A DNA stretch of 64,000 nucleotides from Streptomyces hyaluromycini (GTDB lineage: Bacteria > Actinomycetota > Actinomycetes > Streptomycetales > Streptomycetaceae). Each line of letters begins with the position of its first letter. The stretch's first letter is position 1. The translations under genes and the position numbers were made by a program. The DNA is taken from positions 303,356-367,355 of the forward strand of contig NZ_BCFL01000025.1 of assembly GCF_002217755.1 (NCBI RefSeq), given 5' to 3'. A model generated the notes under the pieces. The model ran no database searches, was not told where the DNA came from, and saw nothing but the letters and a program-made list of their open reading frames with translations. Of the stretch, positions 24,688 through 33,345 are shown piece after piece.

Positions 24688-25407
24688 GTGAGCGTTGATT
24701 CCATGTCACCCGGCGACAGCCCGTTCAAAACAGAACCCACTGCACGTGACGAAGCACCTCAGTTCGTGCTGCCCCTGGTCGTACGGATAGAGAAGTCGGT
24801 GCCTCCTGCCCTCACCGACGCTCTCGAAACGGCCGCTCGGGCTGTCCTGACCATCCTCAGTGACCCTCGGGCCCTCGGGGACGGGGAGTGGGCTCAGGCC
24901 GTTCGGGACTGGGAGGACGCGCGGATCCGGAAGGTGGTGCGGCGGGCGCGGGGGGCCGAGTGGCGGCGGGCCGGGGAGTTGCCCGGGATCACTCTCACGG
25001 GGAAGTCCGCCGAGGTACGGGTGTTTCCGCCGGTTCCCCTGGACGGGTGGCCCAAGGAGCTGGCGAAGTTGCAGGTGTCCGGGACCGAGCTGGACGATCC
25101 GGAGCCGCCCGTGGGTGCCGACCGGACCGCGCCCGTGCTGTGGCTGAACCCGGAGTTGGAGATGTCGGCGGGCAAGGCGATGGCACAGGCCGGGCACGGA
25201 GCCCAACTGGCGTGGTGGGCGCTATCGGAGGAGGAGCGGGACGCCTGGCGCGACGCCGGGTTCCCGCTCGCCGTGCGGACCGCCGATCCGGCCGAGTGGC
25301 GTGAACTTACGGACAGCGGGCTGCCGTTGGTGCGGGACGCCGGGTTCACCGAGATCGCGCCGGGCAGCTGCACGGTGGTCGCGGACCATCCCGCGCTCCG
25401 GGGATAG
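24688..25407 (+). CDS. Pth2-type peptidyl-tRNA hydrolase domain protein
   Basis: 239 residues from GTG 24688. The C-terminal half has the Pth2 pattern: PVLWLNPELEMSAGKAMAQAGHGAQLAWWAL (the conserved K-x-x-x-Q-x-x-H-A helix) and later LPLVRDAGFTEIAPGSCTVVADHPA. Pth2 proteins release amino acids from stalled peptidyl-tRNA in archaea and eukaryotes; bacterial copies are scattered and mostly untested. The first 115 residues are a less conserved, charged N-terminal domain. The stop is 7 bp from the convergent monooxygenase remnant. Confidence 0.82.
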   Translation: MSVDSMSPGDSPFKTEPTARDEAPQFVLPLVVRIEKSVPPALTDALETAARAVLTILSDPRALGDGEWAQAVRDWEDARIRKVVRRARGAEWRRAGELPGITLTGKSAEVRVFPPVPLDGWPKELAKLQVSGTELDDPEPPVGADRTAPVLWLNPELEMSAGKAMAQAGHGAQLAWWALSEEERDAWRDAGFPLAVRTADPAEWRELTDSGLPLVRDAGFTEIAPGSCTVVADHPALRG

Positions 25408-25414
25408 CACGCGG

Positions 25415-26927
25415 TCAGACGGTGTCGGTGCCCCGGTAGGCGTACATGTCGGCAAGGAACTTGCGGCGCAGGGCGGGGACCTTGCCGGTCACGCTGAAGA
25501 AGCTGCGGGTGGCGAAGAGGGCGAGGCGGCCGGTGACGGGCCGGTAGAGCGGGTCGTCGCCGCTGGTGCCGTTGTTGTCGAGGGACTCGGCGACGCGGGT
25601 GAAGCCGTAGGGGATCATGTCCGCCTCGTAGTCGCCGATCGCGGTGAGCAGCGGCTTGTCGCCGCGGGCGGCGGCGGCCAGTTCCCGGCAGAGCAGCGAG
25701 GCGTCGCGCAGCGCGGTGTTGGCGCCGACGCCCTGGCCCGGGGTCATGGTGTGGATGGCGTCGCCGAGCAGGGTGACGGTGGTCGTGGGCCAGGGGTCGA
25801 CGGGGACCGAGGTGGCGATCCTGAGCGGGAACGCCGCCGCCGGGTCGGACAGTTCGAAGATCCTGCGCAGGTCCGGGTGCCAGTTGCGGGTCACCCGCAG
25901 GACCGTGTCGACGAGCTGCTTGCCGCGCTGCCGGGCGGTGTCCTCGGGGAAGTGGTCGTGGGAGCTCCACACGGACAGGTTGATGTAGTCGTGGGTGTTG
26001 TCGAACCGCAGGCCCGACCAGCTGGCCGGCAGCGCCTTGTCGGCGGGGTTCTTGGGCCGGCCCTCGGCGTCCCACTTGAATTCCATGACGTGCAGCATGC
26101 CGATGAGGCCCTTGGTGCCGAAGATCAGGGAGAGTCCGTTGAGCACCTCGTCCGACAGCAGTGCGCGGGTCTCGGGCGTGAGTGCGGTCCTAGGGCCTGT
26201 CTGACAATTCCCGTCGTCGCCCGGAGGGCGGCCTCGCGGCGTCAGGTGCGTGCTCTCGGCGTGCCGGGCGTAGGCCCTCGTACTGGACGTACTTGGGTCT
26301 GCGCCCGGTGCGGCGAGAGTGCGTGCATGGCGTCGCGAGGCAGACGGGAATTGTCAGACAGGCCCTAGTGGCCACGGCCGTGATCCCGGTGTCCTTGATC
26401 TCCGCGTGCGGGAGGTACTGGCGGCGTACGGCGGAGCGGGTGCCGTCGGCGGCGACCAGGACGTCACCGGTCGCGGTGGTGCCGTCGGCGAAGTGGGCGG
26501 TGACCCTGCCGTCCGGGTGCTGCTCGTAGCGGGTGAACTCCTTGCCGTAGTGCACGACGTCGTCCATGCCGGTGAACAGCACCTGGCGCAGGGTCGAGCG
26601 GGACACGGAGCGTTCGCTGTGCACCGCGTCTGCCGCCTCGGGCAGCTCGATCGTGGCGGTGGTGCGGTTCGACTGGGTGAGCACGTTGAAGTACCGGGGG
26701 TCCCGGGCGCAGGTGTCGACGAACGTGGTGAAGAGCCCGGGCGGCAGGCACTCGTGCAGGGCGCGGCTGCCGGTGGGGTCGATGCCGACCCGGTAGCCGT
26801 ACAGGCCGTCGCTCCGGGAGCCGTAGCGCTCGTACACCGCGACGGAGACGCCGGCCTTCTTCAGACCGTGCGCCAGGCACATCCCGCCGGTACCGCCGCC
26901 TATGACCAAGACGTGCATGACGATCAC
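25415..26927 (-). pseudogene. FAD-dependent monooxygenase gene interrupted by a short inverted-repeat element
   Basis: The N-terminal part (from ATG 26927) has the FAD-binding motif VIGGGTGGMCLAHGLKKAGVSVAVYER and LVAADGTRSAVRRQYLP. The C-terminal part has TVTLLGDAIHTMTPGQGVGANTALRDA, the second FAD motif of aromatic-ring hydroxylases. Between them lies an element at 26190-26368. Removing it with one CTAG copy restores one frame, reading ITAVATR-TALTPETRALLS, for a protein of about 445 residues. The 175-bp insertion shifts the frame by one, so no full-length enzyme can be made. Both halves are otherwise intact, which suggests the insertion is recent. Original substrate unknown. Confidence 0.92.
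26190..26368. mobile_element. MITE-like non-autonomous element (171 bp) with CTAG target duplication
   Basis: CTAG at 26190-26193 and 26365-26368 flank an element whose 22-bp ends are perfect inverted repeats starting GGCCTGTCTGACAATTCC. The interior is also largely self-complementary (for example GCCTCGCGGCGTCAGG against its near-complement at the other side), so the whole element can fold as a long imperfect hairpin. No transposase is encoded. A 4-bp CTAG duplication fits IS5- or IS701-type target choice, so it was probably mobilised by a transposase elsewhere. Confidence 0.92.
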
Positions 26928-27117: not shown

Positions 27118-27909
27118 TTGCGGCGTTTCAACGGAACGGCCCTGATCATGGCGGCCCTCGCCACCACGCTCGGCGCGCTCGCCTACCCCGTGTGGTCGTA
27201 CGCCGACCGCTCCGGCACCGGGCAGGCGAACGTGGCGGCGGGCACCGTGGCGACTCAGTGGGGTCCGCTGACCGCCGCCGACCGGGACCTGATCGTGCGG
27301 GTCCGGCTGGCCGGACTGTGGGAGCTGCCGGCCGGCCAGCAGGCGATCCAGCGGGCGCCGAGCGCGGCGATCAAGGAGGCGGGAGACCACCTGATCGTGG
27401 GCCACACCGACCTGGACAAGCGGGTCCGGATCATCGCGGCGCAGCTGGGCGTCGAACTGCCCAACGTGCCGAACGAGCAGCAGCAGGGCTGGCTCGACGA
27501 GATGTCCGCGGCGACCGGCTCGGAGTACGAGTACAAGTTCGTGAACCTGCTGCGGGCCGCGCACGGCAAGATCTTCCCGGCGATCGGCACGGTGCGGAAC
27601 ACCACCCGCAACACCCTGGTACGGCAGCTGGCCTCGGACGCCAACCAGACCGTGCTCGACCACATCACGATCCTGGAGAAGACCGGCAAGGTCGACTTCG
27701 ACGCCATCGCCAACGAGATCGCCAACGCGACCACGGCGAGCCCGACGGGTCCGGCCGCCCCGGTCCCCGGACAGGTGGTGCCCTCCGCGCCGGCCGCGCA
27801 GGCCAGCGGCAACGTGCGGACCACGTCCAAGCCCTCCCCCGGCGCGCCGGGCACGGTGAACACCGCACGCCCGGACCCGACGGACTCGCTCGGCCTGCTC
27901 GGCCAGTAG
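27118..27909 (+). CDS. DUF4142 membrane-anchored protein (first copy)
   Basis: 263 residues from TTG 27118 (CGGGGAGG upstream). An N-terminal membrane anchor (ALIMAALATTLGALAYPVW) precedes a helical DUF4142 domain, a ferritin-like four-helix fold of unknown function: PLTAADRDLIVRVRLAGLWELPAGQQA and ALIVGHTDLDKRVRIIA-like helices. The last 70 residues are Pro/Ala/Thr-rich and end DPTDSLGLLGQ. There is no cysteine. It is paralogous to the gene at 29607; both share YADRS and LAGLWELPAG. It sits 123 bp before the DUF692 gene on the same strand. Confidence 0.88.
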   Translation: MRRFNGTALIMAALATTLGALAYPVWSYADRSGTGQANVAAGTVATQWGPLTAADRDLIVRVRLAGLWELPAGQQAIQRAPSAAIKEAGDHLIVGHTDLDKRVRIIAAQLGVELPNVPNEQQQGWLDEMSAATGSEYEYKFVNLLRAAHGKIFPAIGTVRNTTRNTLVRQLASDANQTVLDHITILEKTGKVDFDAIANEIANATTASPTGPAAPVPGQVVPSAPAAQASGNVRTTSKPSPGAPGTVNTARPDPTDSLGLLGQ

Positions 27910-28032
27910 CCGGAGAGCTCCCCGGAGCGCGACCCCGAACCTCAAATGTTGCTCTGAAGCGGCAGGCAACGCGGTTCGCGGGCGCGCTCCGGGGCCATAC
28001 CCCCCTCACTCGAAGCAGCAGGGGGGACGGCC

Positions 28033-29319
28033 ATGGCCTTGGACCGGCTGGGAACGGGCATCGGCTGGCGGCCGGAGATCGCGGACGCCGTGGAGCGCAT
28101 GCCGGGCATCGACTGGGTCGAGGTCGTGGCCGAGAACACCTGCCCGGGTCACCTCCCCGAGTCGCTGCGGCGGCTGCGCGAGCGCGGGGTGACGGTCGTA
28201 CCGCACGGCGTCTCACTGGGTCTCGGCGGCGCGGACCGGCCGGACGAGGACCGGCTGGCCGCACTCGCCGAGCGGGTGGCGGCGCTGGGCTCGCCGCTGG
28301 TCACCGAGCACATCGCGTTCGTCCGCGCGGGCGGCCCGCGCACGGTGTCGCCCGTCCTGGAGGCGGGCCATCTGCTCCCCGTCCCCCGCACCCGGGACGC
28401 CCTCGACGTGCTCTGCGAGAACGTCCGGATCGCCCAGGCCGCACTGCCCGTGCCGCTCGCCGTCGAGAACATCGCCGCGCTCATCTCGTGGCCGGGCGAG
28501 GAGATGACCGAGGGGCAGTTCCTGTACGACCTCGTGGACCGTACCGGGGTACGGCTGCTGATCGACGTGGCGAACCTGCACACCAACCACGTCAACCGGG
28601 GCGAGGACCCGGCCAAGGCGCTCGCCGAACTCCCCGTCGAGGCCATCGCCTACGTCCATGTCGCGGGCGGCTTCGAGCGGGACGGCGTCTGGCACGACAG
28701 CCACGCCCATCCGGTGCCCCCGGCCGTGCTGGACATCCTGACCGGCCTCGCGTCCCGGGTGGCGCCGCCGGGTGTGCTGCTGGAGCGGGACGAGAACTTC
28801 CCGGAACCGGCCGAGCTGGAGCGGGAGCTGACGGCGATCCGGGCGGCCGTGGCGGCGGGGGGTGCGGTGGCCGCCGGCGAGCGCTGGGAGTCCTCGCCGG
28901 CGGCGACCGCGCCGGAGGTGTCCGACGTCACCCGGCAGCGGGTCGGGCTCGCGCAGGCCGCGGTGCTGTCGTCGCTGGTCGCGGGGACGCCGGTGCCGGA
29001 GGGGTTCGACCGGGTGCGGATGGGGGTGCAGGCACGGGCGCTGGCGGCGAAGCGGGCGGACGTGGTGGCGAAGGTGGCGCCGGAGCTGCCGGAGATCCTC
29101 GGGGCGGGTTACCGGGCGGCGTTCCTGGCGTATGCGCAGGAGCGGCCGATGACGGGGGGCTACCGGCGGGACGCGCTGGAGTTCGCGGGGGAGCTGCTGC
29201 GGGCGGGGCGGCTGGGCGACCAGGGGTCCTGTCGGCGGCTGGAGGAGTGGTGGCTGGAGCGGGCGGGACCGGCACCTCGGCGGTCGCTTGCGCGGAGGGT
29301 GCTGCTGCGGCGCGGGTAG
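28033..29319 (+). CDS. DUF692 multinuclear iron-dependent oxidase (MNIO) fused to a C-terminal domain
   Basis: 428 residues. The first 270 form a DUF692 TIM barrel of the MbnB/TglH/HvfB class, which uses two or three irons and O2 to rebuild residues in ribosomal peptides. Candidate metal ligands are all present: H58, E92-H93, E145-N146, D178, N181, H183, H209, D222, H224, H226, E251 and D253. About 150 further residues (about 280-428) form an alpha-helical domain in the position where HvfC/BufC-like partner proteins act, suggesting enzyme and partner are fused. No Cys-rich precursor peptide is seen nearby. The substrate is unknown; flanking DUF4142 proteins are possible clients. Confidence 0.9.
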
Positions 29320-29390
29320 TGGCCGGGGGGGGGTGGGGACGCTCACCGGCGCTGGCCGGGTGCCGCCCGCGCCCACCCGTGCCGCCCTGG

Positions 29391-29436
29391 GGGCACCTCC
29401 CAGGCCCTTGAGGCACTGGGGGAGGCACGACTGCCC
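29391..29436 (+). repeat. Intergenic repeat, family C (short copy)
   Basis: GGGGGCACCTCCC, then TTGAGGCACTGGGGGAG. The same blocks appear inside the larger element at 31292-31565. It lies 71 bp after the DUF692 stop. Confidence 0.6.
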
Positions 29437-29473
29437 GCGGCTGGATGAGACACGGCTGGGCAGCGCGCCCCAA

Positions 29474-29512
29474 AGGGGCGTGGGGAACTGCGCGACCAGC
29501 CCCCACCGGCCC
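29474..29512 (+). repeat. Interspersed repeat, family B copy 1
   Basis: AGGGGCGTGGGGAACTGCG followed by CGACCAGCCCCC. Sense orientation after the DUF692 gene and 95 bp before the second DUF4142 start, so it separates members of the putative operon. Confidence 0.75.
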
Positions 29513-29606
29513 GCAGCCGACCGACCGCCCGGCACCCCTACGGCAACCCCTCGGTAATATGCCAATCCCGCGCGGCGAAGCCCCACCGTGCGGTGCAGGA
29601 GGCATC

Positions 29607-30404
29607 ATGCGCGCGCGACCCCGACCCCCCGTCCAGGGACGAGGCATATTCAGCGGTACCTGGCTGATCATCGTCTGTCTCACGGCGACCCTCGCCGCCC
29701 TGGTGTTTCCGATCTGGTCGTACGCCGACCGCTCGGACCCGACCGGCTCGGTGAACGTGCTCAGCGCCCAGACCGTGTCGACGGCGTACGGCCCGCTGTC
29801 CGCGCAGGACCGGGACTTCATCGTCAAGGTCCGGCTCGCCGGGCTCTGGGAGCTGCCGGCCGGGGAGATGGCGGAGGAGAAGGGCACCACGGCGGCCGTA
29901 CGGACGGCCGGGCAGCACCTCGTCGACGGGCACACCTCCCTCGACGCCCACGTCCGCACCGTCGCCACCCAGCTCGGCGTGCCGATCCCGAACGGGCCGA
30001 ACGCCCAGCAGCAGCAGTGGCTCGCCACGCTGAGCGCCGCGCAGGGGCAGGACTTCGACCGGGAGTTCGCGAACATCGTGCGGCTGGCCCACGGCCGGGT
30101 CTTCTCCGTGGTCGCCCAGGTCCGCGCCGCCACCCAGAACACGCTGGTCCGCGACCTCGCCGACGACGCCAACACCACCGTCCTGGACCACATCAAGGTC
30201 CTGGAGGCGACCGGCTACGTCGACTTCGCCACACTGGCGCAGCAGTTGGCCGCCACCCCCTCCCCCGTGGCCTCGCCGCCCGTCGTCGCCCCCGCCGACG
30301 CGACCCCGGTCGGGGCGGCGCCGGCACCCGCGGCGTCGCCGTCCTCGACGTACACGCTGCCGCCCGCCACCGCCAGTCCGGAGCCGACGTCCCAGAACCC
30401 CTGA
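29607..30404 (+). CDS. DUF4142 membrane-anchored protein (second copy)
   Basis: 265 residues from ATG 29607, chosen because CAGGAGG sits 5-11 bp upstream although the frame is open earlier. A single hydrophobic segment (TWLIIVCLTATLAALVFPIW) anchors it. The DUF4142 helical domain (PLSAQDRDFIVKVRLAGLWELPAGEMAEEKG) is closely similar to the first copy. The tail is Ala/Pro/Ser/Thr-rich and ends TSQNP. Its one cysteine lies in the membrane segment. Together with the first copy it brackets the DUF692 gene, so the locus makes two exported helical proteins and one iron oxidase. Confidence 0.88.
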   Translation: MRARPRPPVQGRGIFSGTWLIIVCLTATLAALVFPIWSYADRSDPTGSVNVLSAQTVSTAYGPLSAQDRDFIVKVRLAGLWELPAGEMAEEKGTTAAVRTAGQHLVDGHTSLDAHVRTVATQLGVPIPNGPNAQQQQWLATLSAAQGQDFDREFANIVRLAHGRVFSVVAQVRAATQNTLVRDLADDANTTVLDHIKVLEATGYVDFATLAQQLAATPSPVASPPVVAPADATPVGAAPAPAASPSSTYTLPPATASPEPTSQNP

Positions 30405-30500
30405 CCTGCACGGGAAGCGGAACGTCACATACCGACAACACTCGGTCCGGAATGTGAACAGGGCATGGCGGTGGCCAGGCCGCTGGCATAGAAACGTGTC

Positions 30501-31280
30501 ATGTTCTGGGTCCTTCTCCTGCTCCTGGCCTGGGCCGTCGCCGGCACCGCCTGCACCCGGTTGTGCCTGGCCGCCGTACGGACGGCGGTCGTCGACGCGG
30601 ACGCGGGCCGGGGACACGATCTGACGCTGTACGAGGCCGCGTTCCTGTCCGGCGGGCCCGCGCGGGTCGCGGATCTGACGCTGGTGTCCATGGCCCGGCA
30701 ACGGCGGCTGCTGCTCGCCCACACCGGCTGGGCGACCGTTGTGGACCCGCGGGGGCGGGACGAGATGGAGCGGTCGGTGATAGGGGCCATCGGGCCCGAG
30801 GGGCAGTCGCGGATAGCGCCGGTGCGCTCGGCGGCGGCCGACACGGACGCCGTGCGAAGTCTCGGCGAGGATCTGGTGCGGGCGGGGCTCGCGGTGCCCG
30901 ACGCGGCGGCGCGGACCACGGTCGCGTCCGGCGTCCGGCAGGTCCGGGCCGCCGCACTGGCGGTCCTCGGGCTCGGCGTGGCCGCGCTCACGCTGCCCGC
31001 TCCGACCGAGATGCCACGCGACCTGGTCGCCGTCTGGTTCGCGCTGCCCCTCACCCTCACGCTGAGCTGCCTGGCCATCGCCCGGGTCGAGGTGCACCCG
31101 TACTCGCGGTGGGCCTCCCCCGCCGGGCAGCGGCTGCTCGGCGTGCTGCACCGGCGGGTGAACCGCACGGCCGACGACCACTCGCTGCTGACCTCCGTCG
31201 CGGTACGCGGCATCCGCGCGATCGGCGAGCCGGAGCTGCGTGCGGCCTTCGCACACCGGGACCAGCTTCCGCGGGAGTGA
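30501..31280 (+). CDS. TIGR04222-like membrane protein
   Basis: 259 residues. An N-terminal membrane helix (FWVLLLLLAWAVAGTACTRLCLAAV, with C18 and C22) is followed by the conserved core HDLTLYEAAFLSGGPARVADLTLVSMARQRRLLL, which I recognise as the TIGR04222 pattern. Two further helices lie near 150-190. Members are often found close to DUF692 genes and often end in a Gly/Cys-rich tail; this one lacks such a tail and ends HRDQLPRE. The stop is 11 bp before the next inverted-repeat element. Inferred to work with the DUF692 enzyme; role unknown. Confidence 0.72.
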   Translation: MFWVLLLLLAWAVAGTACTRLCLAAVRTAVVDADAGRGHDLTLYEAAFLSGGPARVADLTLVSMARQRRLLLAHTGWATVVDPRGRDEMERSVIGAIGPEGQSRIAPVRSAAADTDAVRSLGEDLVRAGLAVPDAAARTTVASGVRQVRAAALAVLGLGVAALTLPAPTEMPRDLVAVWFALPLTLTLSCLAIARVEVHPYSRWASPAGQRLLGVLHRRVNRTADDHSLLTSVAVRGIRAIGEPELRAAFAHRDQLPRE

Positions 31281-31704: not shown

Positions 31705-33345
31705 TTGAGAGCCCCCGCCCTGTACTCGGCCGCCGGGTCCCTGATCCTGACCACCCTGGCCGCCGCCCCGGCCGGGAGCGCCCCCCGCGTCCCGGACTCG
31801 GCGTCGGCCGAACTGCGCGGTACCGCCGTGGCCGCCGCGCGAGCACGCGCGGAGGGCATCGACTTCGGCCGGTGCGCCGCCGACCTGGAGGCGCCGGACA
31901 CCTTCCGGTGCGGCACGGTGAGCGTCCCGCTGGACTACGCGCACCCGGACGGCAAGCAGATCAAACTGACCGTCAGCCGGGTGCCGGCCACCCACAAGGA
32001 CCCGCACAACAGCAAGCGCAAGGTGCCCCGGCAGGGCGTCCTGGTCTACAACCCGGGCGGCCCCGGCGCCTCCGGCATGCTCTTCCCGATGATCGGCGTA
32101 CTGCCCGAGTGGAAGCGCATCGCCGCCGCCTACGACCTGGTCGGCTACGCCCCGCGCGGCGTCGACCGCTCCGCCCCGCTGTCCTGCGTCGACCCCAAGC
32201 ACTTCTTCAAGGCGCCGTCGCAGTCGCCGACGCATCCCTCCGAGTCGTACAAGAAGGCCCGGATCAAGGAGGCGAAGGCCTACGCGAAGGGCTGCCTCAA
32301 GCGCTCCGGGAGCAGGCTGCGCCACTACACCTCGCTCAACAACGCCCGGGACCTGGACGTGCTGCGCGCGGCGCTCGGCGAGGACCGGCTGACCTTCATG
32401 GGCGCCTCGTACGGAACCTACTTCGGCGCGCTGTACGCGACCCTGTTCCCCTCGCACGTACGGCGGATGGTGCTGGACTCGGCGGTGAACCCGGACCCGG
32501 AGCGGATCTGGTACCGGGACAACCTGGAGCAGTCGGCCGCGTTCGAGGGCCGGTGGGCGGACTTCCGGGACTGGATCGCCAAGCACGACGACGTGTACCG
32601 GCTCGGCGACACGGCCGCGAAGGTGCAGGCGAGCTACGACAGGGCGAGCCGGCGGCTGGCCAAGAAGGCGGCCGGCGGGAAGGTCGGGCCGGGGCAGTTG
32701 CAGGGCGCGTTCCTGTCGGCCGGGTACTACGACGACTACTGGCCGAGCCGGGCGGAGGCGCTGTCGAAGTTCCTGAAGGGGGACGCCAAGCCCCTGGTCC
32801 GGCTGGCGGCGCCGGTGACGGAGACGGCCGCCGAGGCGGAGAACGGCAACGCGGTCTACACGGCCGTCGAGTGCAACGACGCCCCCTGGCCGAGGGACTT
32901 CGCCACCTGGGACCGGGACAACACCCGGCTCGCCCGTGTGGCGCCCTTCGAGACCTGGGACAACGCCTTCATGAACCTGCCGTGCGCCTACTGGCCGGTG
33001 CCCCGGCAGAAGGCCCTCGACGTGCGCACGGGCCCCGGTGAGCTGCCGCCGACGCTCATCCTCCAGGCCGAGCGGGACGCGGCCACGCCGTACACGGGCG
33101 CGCTGGAGATGAACCGGCGGCTGGCCGACTCGGTGCTGGTGACCGAGCGGGACGCGGGCACGCACGGCATCGGCGGCGGCCCCAACAAGTGCGTGAACGG
33201 CTATCTGGAGGCCTACCTGCTGGAGGGCAGGCTCCCGGCTCGGCGCGCCTCCTGTGCGGGGCACCCCGAGCCGAGGCCGGCGGCCGACCATGCCCGGCGG
33301 AAGAACCTGCGGGACTCCCTGAAGGGCAAGGCCGGCCAGCGCTGA
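31705..33345 (+). CDS. Secreted tripeptidyl aminopeptidase (alpha/beta hydrolase, SlpD/E-type)
   Basis: 546 residues from TTG 31705 (GAAGGGA upstream), chosen because it gives a signal peptide (YSAAGSLILTTLAAAPAGSA). The alpha/beta-hydrolase core shows VLVYNPGGPGASGM (oxyanion region), the nucleophile elbow FMGASYGTYFGAL, DSAVNPDP, a late acidic site ILQAERDAATPY and the catalytic His in AGTHGIGGG. Streptomyces relatives remove tripeptides from exported proteins or degrade peptides outside the cell. Monocistronic by spacing. Confidence 0.9.
   Translation: MRAPALYSAAGSLILTTLAAAPAGSAPRVPDSASAELRGTAVAAARARAEGIDFGRCAADLEAPDTFRCGTVSVPLDYAHPDGKQIKLTVSRVPATHKDPHNSKRKVPRQGVLVYNPGGPGASGMLFPMIGVLPEWKRIAAAYDLVGYAPRGVDRSAPLSCVDPKHFFKAPSQSPTHPSESYKKARIKEAKAYAKGCLKRSGSRLRHYTSLNNARDLDVLRAALGEDRLTFMGASYGTYFGALYATLFPSHVRRMVLDSAVNPDPERIWYRDNLEQSAAFEGRWADFRDWIAKHDDVYRLGDTAAKVQASYDRASRRLAKKAAGGKVGPGQLQGAFLSAGYYDDYWPSRAEALSKFLKGDAKPLVRLAAPVTETAAEAENGNAVYTAVECNDAPWPRDFATWDRDNTRLARVAPFETWDNAFMNLPCAYWPVPRQKALDVRTGPGELPPTLILQAERDAATPYTGALEMNRRLADSVLVTERDAGTHGIGGGPNKCVNGYLEAYLLEGRLPARRASCAGHPEPRPAADHARRKNLRDSLKGKAGQR

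Follow-up and report, generated by a model that had tools for sequence, protein, structure and literature searches.

A DUF692 (MNIO) enzyme with a predicted fused partner domain is retained in Streptomyces lineages lacking the Cys-tailed TIGR04222 paralogue

The window, i.e., the whole 64,000-nt stretch of DNA analysed here, contains four genes on the forward strand which encode a DUF4142 protein (D1; 27118–27909, PF13628, 4.4e-16), a DUF692 protein of the MNIO class (28033–29319, PF05114, 6.5e-77), a second DUF4142 protein (D2; 29607–30404, PF13628, 1.1e-23) and a tailless TIGR04222 protein (TIGR04222b, here T4b; 30501–31280, TIGR04222.1, 1.1e-44). These profile matches bear out the order and common orientation that had been read from the sequence alone. 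Two conserved neighbours on the same strand frame this arrangement, a PTH2-like gene upstream (24688–25407, PF01981, 3.5e-10; adjamnio-II of PMC12452194) and a syntenic gene for a TAP-like alpha/beta hydrolase downstream (31705–33345, PF08386, 8.6e-26). As the original prediction requires, the neighbourhood is conserved across Streptomyces: synteny was found in most of approximately 136 loci, with genes in the relatives called by codon usage and rechecked by six-frame search, and the neighbourhood is real, not the product of chance. The PTH2-like gene is present at 88 of about 120 Streptomyces loci, and HemQ, CgoX and PTH2-like genes adjoin MNIO in most lineages. The fullest order among the 136 loci is DUF4142-MNIO-TIGR04222a-DUF4142-TIGR04222b, in which TIGR04222a (T4a) carries a Cys/Gly/Ser tail and TIGR04222b is tailless. 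Comparison of gene orders places T4a in what is, in the window, the gap between MNIO and D2 (29320–29606, forward strand), which contains no ORF, only intergenic repeat sequence.

The N-terminal part of the MNIO protein (residues 1–272; 28033–28848, forward strand) constitutes the catalytic domain. It scored 258.8 bits with PF05114 (cut-off 25), the AlphaFold2 model (pLDDT 89.9) is a TIM barrel, and it matched the structures of TglH (Z 27.5) and MbnB (Z 26.4). Alignment to TglH, whose published ligand set served as reference (PMC10880893), identified H58, H93, E145, D178, N181, H209, D222, H224 and E251 as iron ligands, and none of these nine positions varies among the Streptomyces MNIOs of the alignment, bar one gap at H58. 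Hence profile, fold and ligand alignment uphold the view that this is a genuine MNIO with a complete iron site, while the list of ligands proposed earlier needs revision: H58, H93, E145, D178, H209, H224 and E251 match those of TglH, N181 and D222 had been overlooked, and E92, N146, H183, H226 and D253 correspond to non-ligands in TglH. H183 is a Tyr in most distant homologues. We propose that the protein is a putatively iron-binding, cytoplasmic multinuclear iron oxygenase, which would modify a peptide or protein in an iron- and oxygen-dependent manner.

A linker of about 25 codons (residues ~273–297; 28849–28923, forward strand), evolving near-neutrally with a median dN/dS of ~1.0, connects the catalytic domain to a C-terminal helical bundle (residues ~298–428; 28924–29316, forward strand). 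This bundle, described initially as a helical domain of about 150 residues that might be a fused partner, is, judged by its homologues, a PME-type 2 or DUF2063-like MNIO partner. Free-standing homologues are encoded directly downstream of unfused MNIO genes in other lineages, where they overlap the MNIO gene, and 6 of 16 members of the partner family matched PF09836 (DUF2063; best 3.6e-6). The partner sequence of the window on its own yielded no PF09836 match, nothing significant was found in PDB sequence or profile searches with this domain, and in the structure search with the whole MNIO model the list was filled by the TIM barrel.

The TIGR04222 proteins at these loci belong to two paralogous groups, split once in the tree with an SH-aLRT support of 100. 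T4a starts no more than 10 nt from the MNIO stop codon in 47 of 49 loci and contains in most cases 7–13 Cys, located mostly in the C-terminal tail. The protein of the window groups with the tailless T4b; it has Cys18 and Cys22, as noted before, plus Cys190, and ends at 259 aa with neither a Gly/Ser/Cys tail nor any tail Cys, again in agreement with the first description. The single, fully supported split rules out that it descends from the tailed group by loss of the tail. Neither did D2 replace a lost TIGR04222a, as T4a and D2 coexist, in this order, at the loci L206, L212 and L262, with T4a in the MNIO-D2 gap. Thus, the gene missing from the window is the Cys-tailed paralogue T4a, which the remaining half of the genus retains in translational coupling with MNIO.

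We found MNIO in 141 of 150 Streptomyces genomes (~94%), and it has been lost from the remaining nine. T4a is absent from 65 of the 67 members of the window's clade, although for two members (L178 and L182) the sequence stops shortly after MNIO; the support for this clade (SH-aLRT 91) is not decisive. L206 and L212, which lie inside the clade, keep D1-MNIO-T4a-D2-T4b, so the window represents that order minus T4a. The MNIO core is under strong purifying selection in the T4a-less clade: its dN/dS was 0.13 in T4a-less lineages vs 0.195 in those with T4a, with the linker (~1) as internal control, and each of the 69 T4a-less proteins retains all nine ligands, apart from a single gap in the alignment at H58. 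In the partner domain, dN/dS was 0.30 without and 0.31 with T4a, and this unchanged constraint suggests continued recognition of a peptide or protein. Ten mostly conservative differences set the clade apart; L206 and L212 already share its core residues except at position 169, and no core residue marks the loss of T4a, which speaks against a switch in specificity at that point.

The neighbours of MNIO have been lost repeatedly. Two genomes (G045 and G023), the only ones in which MNIO stands entirely alone, have an intact MNIO, no TIGR04222 and only DUF305-type matches to the DUF4142 profile, and both TIGR04222b and DUF4142 occur without MNIO. No gene adjoining MNIO is therefore indispensable, and the four genes do not form one obligate system, contrary to the initial proposal; D1 and D2 were never tightly coupled to MNIO either, as none of 90 DUF4142-MNIO gaps measured 10 nt or less.

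D1 (263 aa) begins with TTG; an ATG at 27148 is a possible start as well, and the stretch RRxNGTALI preceding this second ATG is kept in relatives. The protein consists of an N-terminal membrane helix, a ferritin-like domain and a disordered Pro/Ser/Thr-rich tail with the conserved motif TSRP...VNTxRPxP, and lacks Cys. D2 (265 aa; ATG at 29607, preceded by a good ribosome site) has a membrane helix (residues 17–40), a ferritin-like bundle (66–216) and the tail motif SPTYxLPPAxxSP. Its AlphaFold2 model shows a four-helix ferritin-like bundle with pLDDT mostly above 94, for which the best structural matches were the DUF305 protein 3bt5 (Z 15.9) and CopM (5fej, Z 14.9), values that helical bundles can reach by arrangement alone. 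The sequence match of D2 to DUF305 (7e-4) is below the cut-off, identity to DUF305/CopM is at most ~20%, and D2 differs from them in its membrane anchor and long tail. With regard to possible metal binding, H104, H109 and H195 are invariant in DUF4142.

Searching for a client of the enzyme, we detected no conserved small ORF beside MNIO, in line with the earlier remark that a Cys-rich precursor is missing nearby. The commonest cluster of candidate ORFs (56 loci) arose from reading over the start of D2 in another frame, and a hidden precursor was rejected. The lack of a linked Cys-rich precursor implies a client that is unlinked or non-classical. The search of the window genome for an unlinked Cys-rich client covered TIGR04222, DUF2282 and one Cys-repeat pattern. 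It yielded a single TIGR04222, the tailless T4b, no DUF2282, and two matches to the pattern vs two in the control, neither of them a Cys-tailed protein; read in frame, they are short ORFs (78 and 42 aa) that overlap with longer frames.

The linkage of MNIO and TIGR04222 has been published for clusters of Actinomycetota, including an adjamnio-II (peptidyl-tRNA hydrolase)-MNIO-TIGR04222 class (Antoine et al. 2025, PMC12452194); according to that paper, TIGR04222 proteins are diverse, many lack Cys and some follow the MNIO gene. The window shares with this class the three gene families and the setting, with the PTH2-like gene upstream, but differs in that the partner is fused to MNIO, the Cys-tailed TIGR04222 was lost while its tailless paralogue was kept, and two DUF4142 genes flank MNIO. 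DUF4142 is absent from the main text of that paper, and its passages on fusions contain no MNIO-PME fusion; in the literature searched, neither the fusion nor the client loss nor the DUF4142 link has been reported. With TglH-TglI and MbnB-MbnC, the window's enzyme has the fold in common, and its ligand set is identical to that of TglH; whereas those systems have a separate partner and a linked precursor, here there is one chain and no linked precursor. By profile, the enzyme is closest to BufB (NF050167, 2.2e-52), although its 178 bits fall short of the cut-off of 310. BufB has a DUF2063-RRE partner, which the partner of the window resembles remotely, but bufferin precursors are Cys-containing with a signal peptide, and we found none beside MNIO and no DUF2282 in the genome.

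With a free linker tethering it to a DUF2063-like partner, the MNIO would unite enzyme and client-binding helper in a single polypeptide. The most likely ancestral client among linked genes is the translationally coupled membrane protein T4a with its Cys/Gly/Ser tail, and both this coupling and the proposal in PMC12452194 suggest that T4a tails are modified. The window's lineage would then have lost T4a while keeping the enzyme. We consider it somewhat probable that the fusion persisted after its Cys-tailed client had disappeared and now acts on a different one, which is probably unlinked: because the MNIO stayed intact and under purifying selection after the loss, it would still modify another protein or peptide, whose gene most likely lies at a distant genomic site. 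DUF4142 and the tailless TIGR04222 probably take part in the same physiology, which may be related to metals, as accessories at the cell surface rather than as obligate clients. It is possible, as a more tentative suggestion, that the near-universal MNIO, freed from the Cys-tailed client, performs a housekeeping modification on a conserved unlinked protein or on DUF4142; to our knowledge, the enzyme class is known only from RiPP maturation.

Alternatively, the linked proteins themselves could be the clients, with the MNIO acting before membrane crossing on the DUF4142 tails (candidate residues are Tyr, Asp or Asn in the D1 and D2 motifs) and/or on Cys18 and Cys22 of TIGR04222b. In the T4a-less clade, almost all MNIO genes have DUF4142 or T4b as a neighbour, the tail motifs of D1 and D2 are unlike the tails of two unlinked DUF4142 proteins in the same genome, and MNIOs modify residues besides Cys (PMC13174530). 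However, we regard this as rather unlikely: conserved Cys are lacking in D1 and D2, whose motifs are present with or without T4a, neither gene is coupled to MNIO, each persists without MNIO and MNIO without both, and several T4b proteins lack Cys18 or Cys22. Recruitment to a conserved housekeeping role outside peptide maturation, on a free small molecule or an iron-, haem- or copper-handling protein, appears improbable, since the partner domain has been kept and is as constrained as in lineages with T4a. The wide occurrence of MNIO, the nearby PTH2-like, HemQ and CgoX genes and the resemblance of DUF4142 to copper-binding CopM/DUF305 would fit such a role, but the haem genes have the opposite orientation and synteny alone explains the neighbourhood. 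Slow decay of the MNIO as a relic of the T4a loss is hardly credible, even with nine genomes devoid of it and its neighbours repeatedly lost: the intact ligands and a core dN/dS below that of T4a-bearing lineages reject decay after client loss.

MNIO enzymes are currently found via an adjacent precursor. This locus offers a natural experiment, the same fused enzyme occurring with a putative Cys-tailed client in about half of Streptomyces and without it in the other half, and opens two questions, namely the nature of the predicted TIGR04222 tail modification and how an MNIO acts without a nearby precursor. As MNIO is present in ~94% of the sampled Streptomyces genomes, the answer would concern a core feature of the genus, and the fusion, as a single-chain enzyme, may be simpler to produce and investigate than MNIO complexes of two proteins.

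Within the MNIO-D2 gap, a stable RNA was considered and rejected (folding z -0.48), and a dispersed repeat was located at 29475–29501.

The four genes of the original prediction lie on the same strand as described and match, with strong scores in Pfam and NCBIfam, DUF4142 (D1, 27118-27909 (+)), MbnB_TglH_ChrH (the MNIO, 28033-29319 (+)), DUF4142 (D2, 29607-30404 (+)) and TIGR04222 (30501-31280 (+)). In this Streptomyces genome of 11.5 Mb, MNIO and TIGR04222 each occur once and PF13628 has five matches, three of them beyond the locus (two DUF4142 proteins and one DUF305-type protein). The window enzyme is an MNIO by every feature examined. Alignment to the TglH structure, with the ligand set taken from PMC10880893, gave H58, H93, E145, D178, N181, H209, D222, H224 and E251 as iron ligands; the predicted list holds in part, five of its residues being non-ligands in TglH. 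AlphaFold2 gave a confident model (pLDDT 89.9), whose residues 1-280 match TglH (Z 27.5), MbnB (26.4) and 3bww (24.3), with the next TIM barrels at 17.7.

Judged by its homologues, the C-terminal domain of the MNIO is a fused partner. This idea, already part of the prediction, was borne out by free-standing homologues 3′ of unfused MNIOs and by DUF2063 matches. In several Streptomyces lineages and other Actinomycetota, the counterpart of residues ~298-428 is a separate gene directly 3′ of an unfused MNIO. Of the 13 such genes that were called, 11 begin right at the MNIO stop or overlap it (usually by 4-17 nt). The aligned family shares the motif Q...LV.G..P.GF...KR, and 6 of its 16 members match Pfam DUF2063 (best E 3.6e-6), a known MNIO partner family; short DUF2063-like proteins occur as “PME-type 2” in TIGR04222 clusters (PMC12452194). 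The linker (~273-297) has a dN/dS of ~1 and the domains on both sides are constrained, the pattern expected of two working domains that have been fused. The window enzyme would act like MNIO-partner pairs, but with enzyme and partner in one chain.

An even sample of the genus contained MNIO in 141 of 150 Streptomyces genomes, and 136 loci were compared. At 64 of them the MNIO is adjoined by a TIGR04222 protein that ends in a Gly/Ser/Cys tail (T4a). Of the 49 T4a genes called, 47 start no more than 10 nt from the upstream MNIO stop, and many of these overlap it, an arrangement suggestive of translational coupling. Often a further TIGR04222 protein, T4b, comes next; it has ~260 aa and no tail, and the tree splits T4a from T4b on a single branch (support 100). 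The tail is absent from the window TIGR04222, as predicted; this protein falls in T4b, however, and is therefore the other paralogue, not a protein of the Cys-tailed, MNIO-linked kind that lacks its tail. The complete set of five, DUF4142-MNIO-T4a-DUF4142-T4b, stands in this order at three loci (L206, L212, L262), and the window has exactly this order without T4a. Elsewhere, two Cys-tailed TIGR04222 proteins stand in tandem (L271, genome G035), a second, divergent MNIO locus has its own Cys-tailed TIGR04222 (L166, G060), and a draft genome that yielded no MNIO encodes a short-tailed (Cys/Gly) TIGR04222 from a different subgroup (L290, G102). At L043, L060 and L241 the same approximately three opposite-strand genes are inserted in the MNIO-D2 interval, separating MNIO from the remainder of the locus.

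In the MNIO tree the window's clade (SH-aLRT 91) comprises 67 of the sampled genomes, and T4a occurs only in L206 and L212 among them; of the 65 members without it, the contigs of L178 and L182 stop just beyond MNIO. The whole tree requires five T4a changes, so its loss is rare and old. Searching the window genome for TIGR04222 revealed no T4a elsewhere, and many other clade genomes likewise have at most one TIGR04222 match in the genus-wide search. All nine ligands are kept in all 69 T4a-less proteins, one alignment gap excepted. T4a-less proteins have a median dN/dS of 0.13 in the core and 0.30 in the partner domain, T4a-bearing ones 0.195 and 0.31 (pairwise Nei-Gojobori estimates from non-independent pairs). 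T4a as the sole client would predict decay of the enzyme, which the intact ligands and low dN/dS rule out. No core substitution clearly marks the loss: L206 and L212 already share the residues of the clade at every distinguishing core position except one. From the undecayed enzyme and the lack of such a mark we infer that a second client already existed before T4a was lost.

The second client is probably not linked to the MNIO, which is the weakest step of the argument. Conserved motifs in the tails of D1 (TSRP...VNTxRPxP) and D2 (SPTYxLPPAxxSP) speak for a neighbour protein as client, but these motifs are Cys-free and the same whether T4a is present or absent, and such a client appears rather unlikely. 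D1, D2 and T4b are each missing from many loci. Three genomes have an MNIO and no TIGR04222 anywhere (G013, G107, G110), and two have an MNIO with intact ligands and only DUF305-type matches, without TIGR04222 or true DUF4142 (G045, G023). Conversely, T4b occurs without MNIO in G047 and G105, as do DUF4142 relatives in G008 and G089. D2 is never near the MNIO stop (75-949 nt). The 500 nt before MNIO and the 600 nt after it contain no conserved small ORF, in agreement with the predicted absence of a nearby Cys-rich precursor. In other Actinomycetota, two loci (L145, L146) have related small ORFs (55-60 aa, 2-3 Cys) just upstream of MNIO, possible candidates for unreported RiPP precursors.

That MNIO and TIGR04222 are associated has been published before. 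Four features were not found in the freely accessible main texts searched: the fusion of MNIO to its partner, the existence of two TIGR04222 paralogues, the loss of T4a in about half of the genus with the enzyme kept, and the DUF4142 genes beside MNIO; priority is not proven.

The D2 model is a ferritin-like bundle whose nearest structures are DUF305 and copper-binding CopM (Z 15-16), a likeness that is suggestive only, as rank 50 still reached 13.2. The 3′ neighbours are a TAP-like hydrolase gene and, in the opposite orientation, genes for a CgoX-like protein and for HemQ, of the chlorite dismutase family. From the gene neighbours and from bufferins one might guess at a cell-surface role in metal or redox handling; the window locus does not itself belong to the bufferin systems. 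In S. coelicolor the MNIO is presumably SCO6045. SCO6045 is listed among the genes responding ~3-fold to the haem/redox sensor system HbpS-SenS-SenR (PMC4991794).

A PTH2-like protein with an N-terminal extension is encoded at 24688-25407, and its gene lies 5′ of MNIO in most Streptomyces loci, with or without T4a. It is apparently the adjamnio-II of PMC12452194, although that was assigned to PF01195 and the window gene matches PF01981. Between it and D1 are inserted two (-) strand ORFs that resemble a single FAD monooxygenase split by a frameshift into a C-terminal half (25415-26146) and an N-terminal half (26190-26927), through either decay or sequencing error. A dispersed intergenic repeat, GGGGCGYGGGGAACTGCGCGACCAGCC, occurs at 29475-29501 (+), 38199 (+), 55160 (-) and 62570 (-); the genome contains 91 copies of a 24-base segment of this repeat (at most 1 mismatch; reversed control 0), and one repeat copy lies in the MNIO-D2 gap, the position of T4a in relatives.
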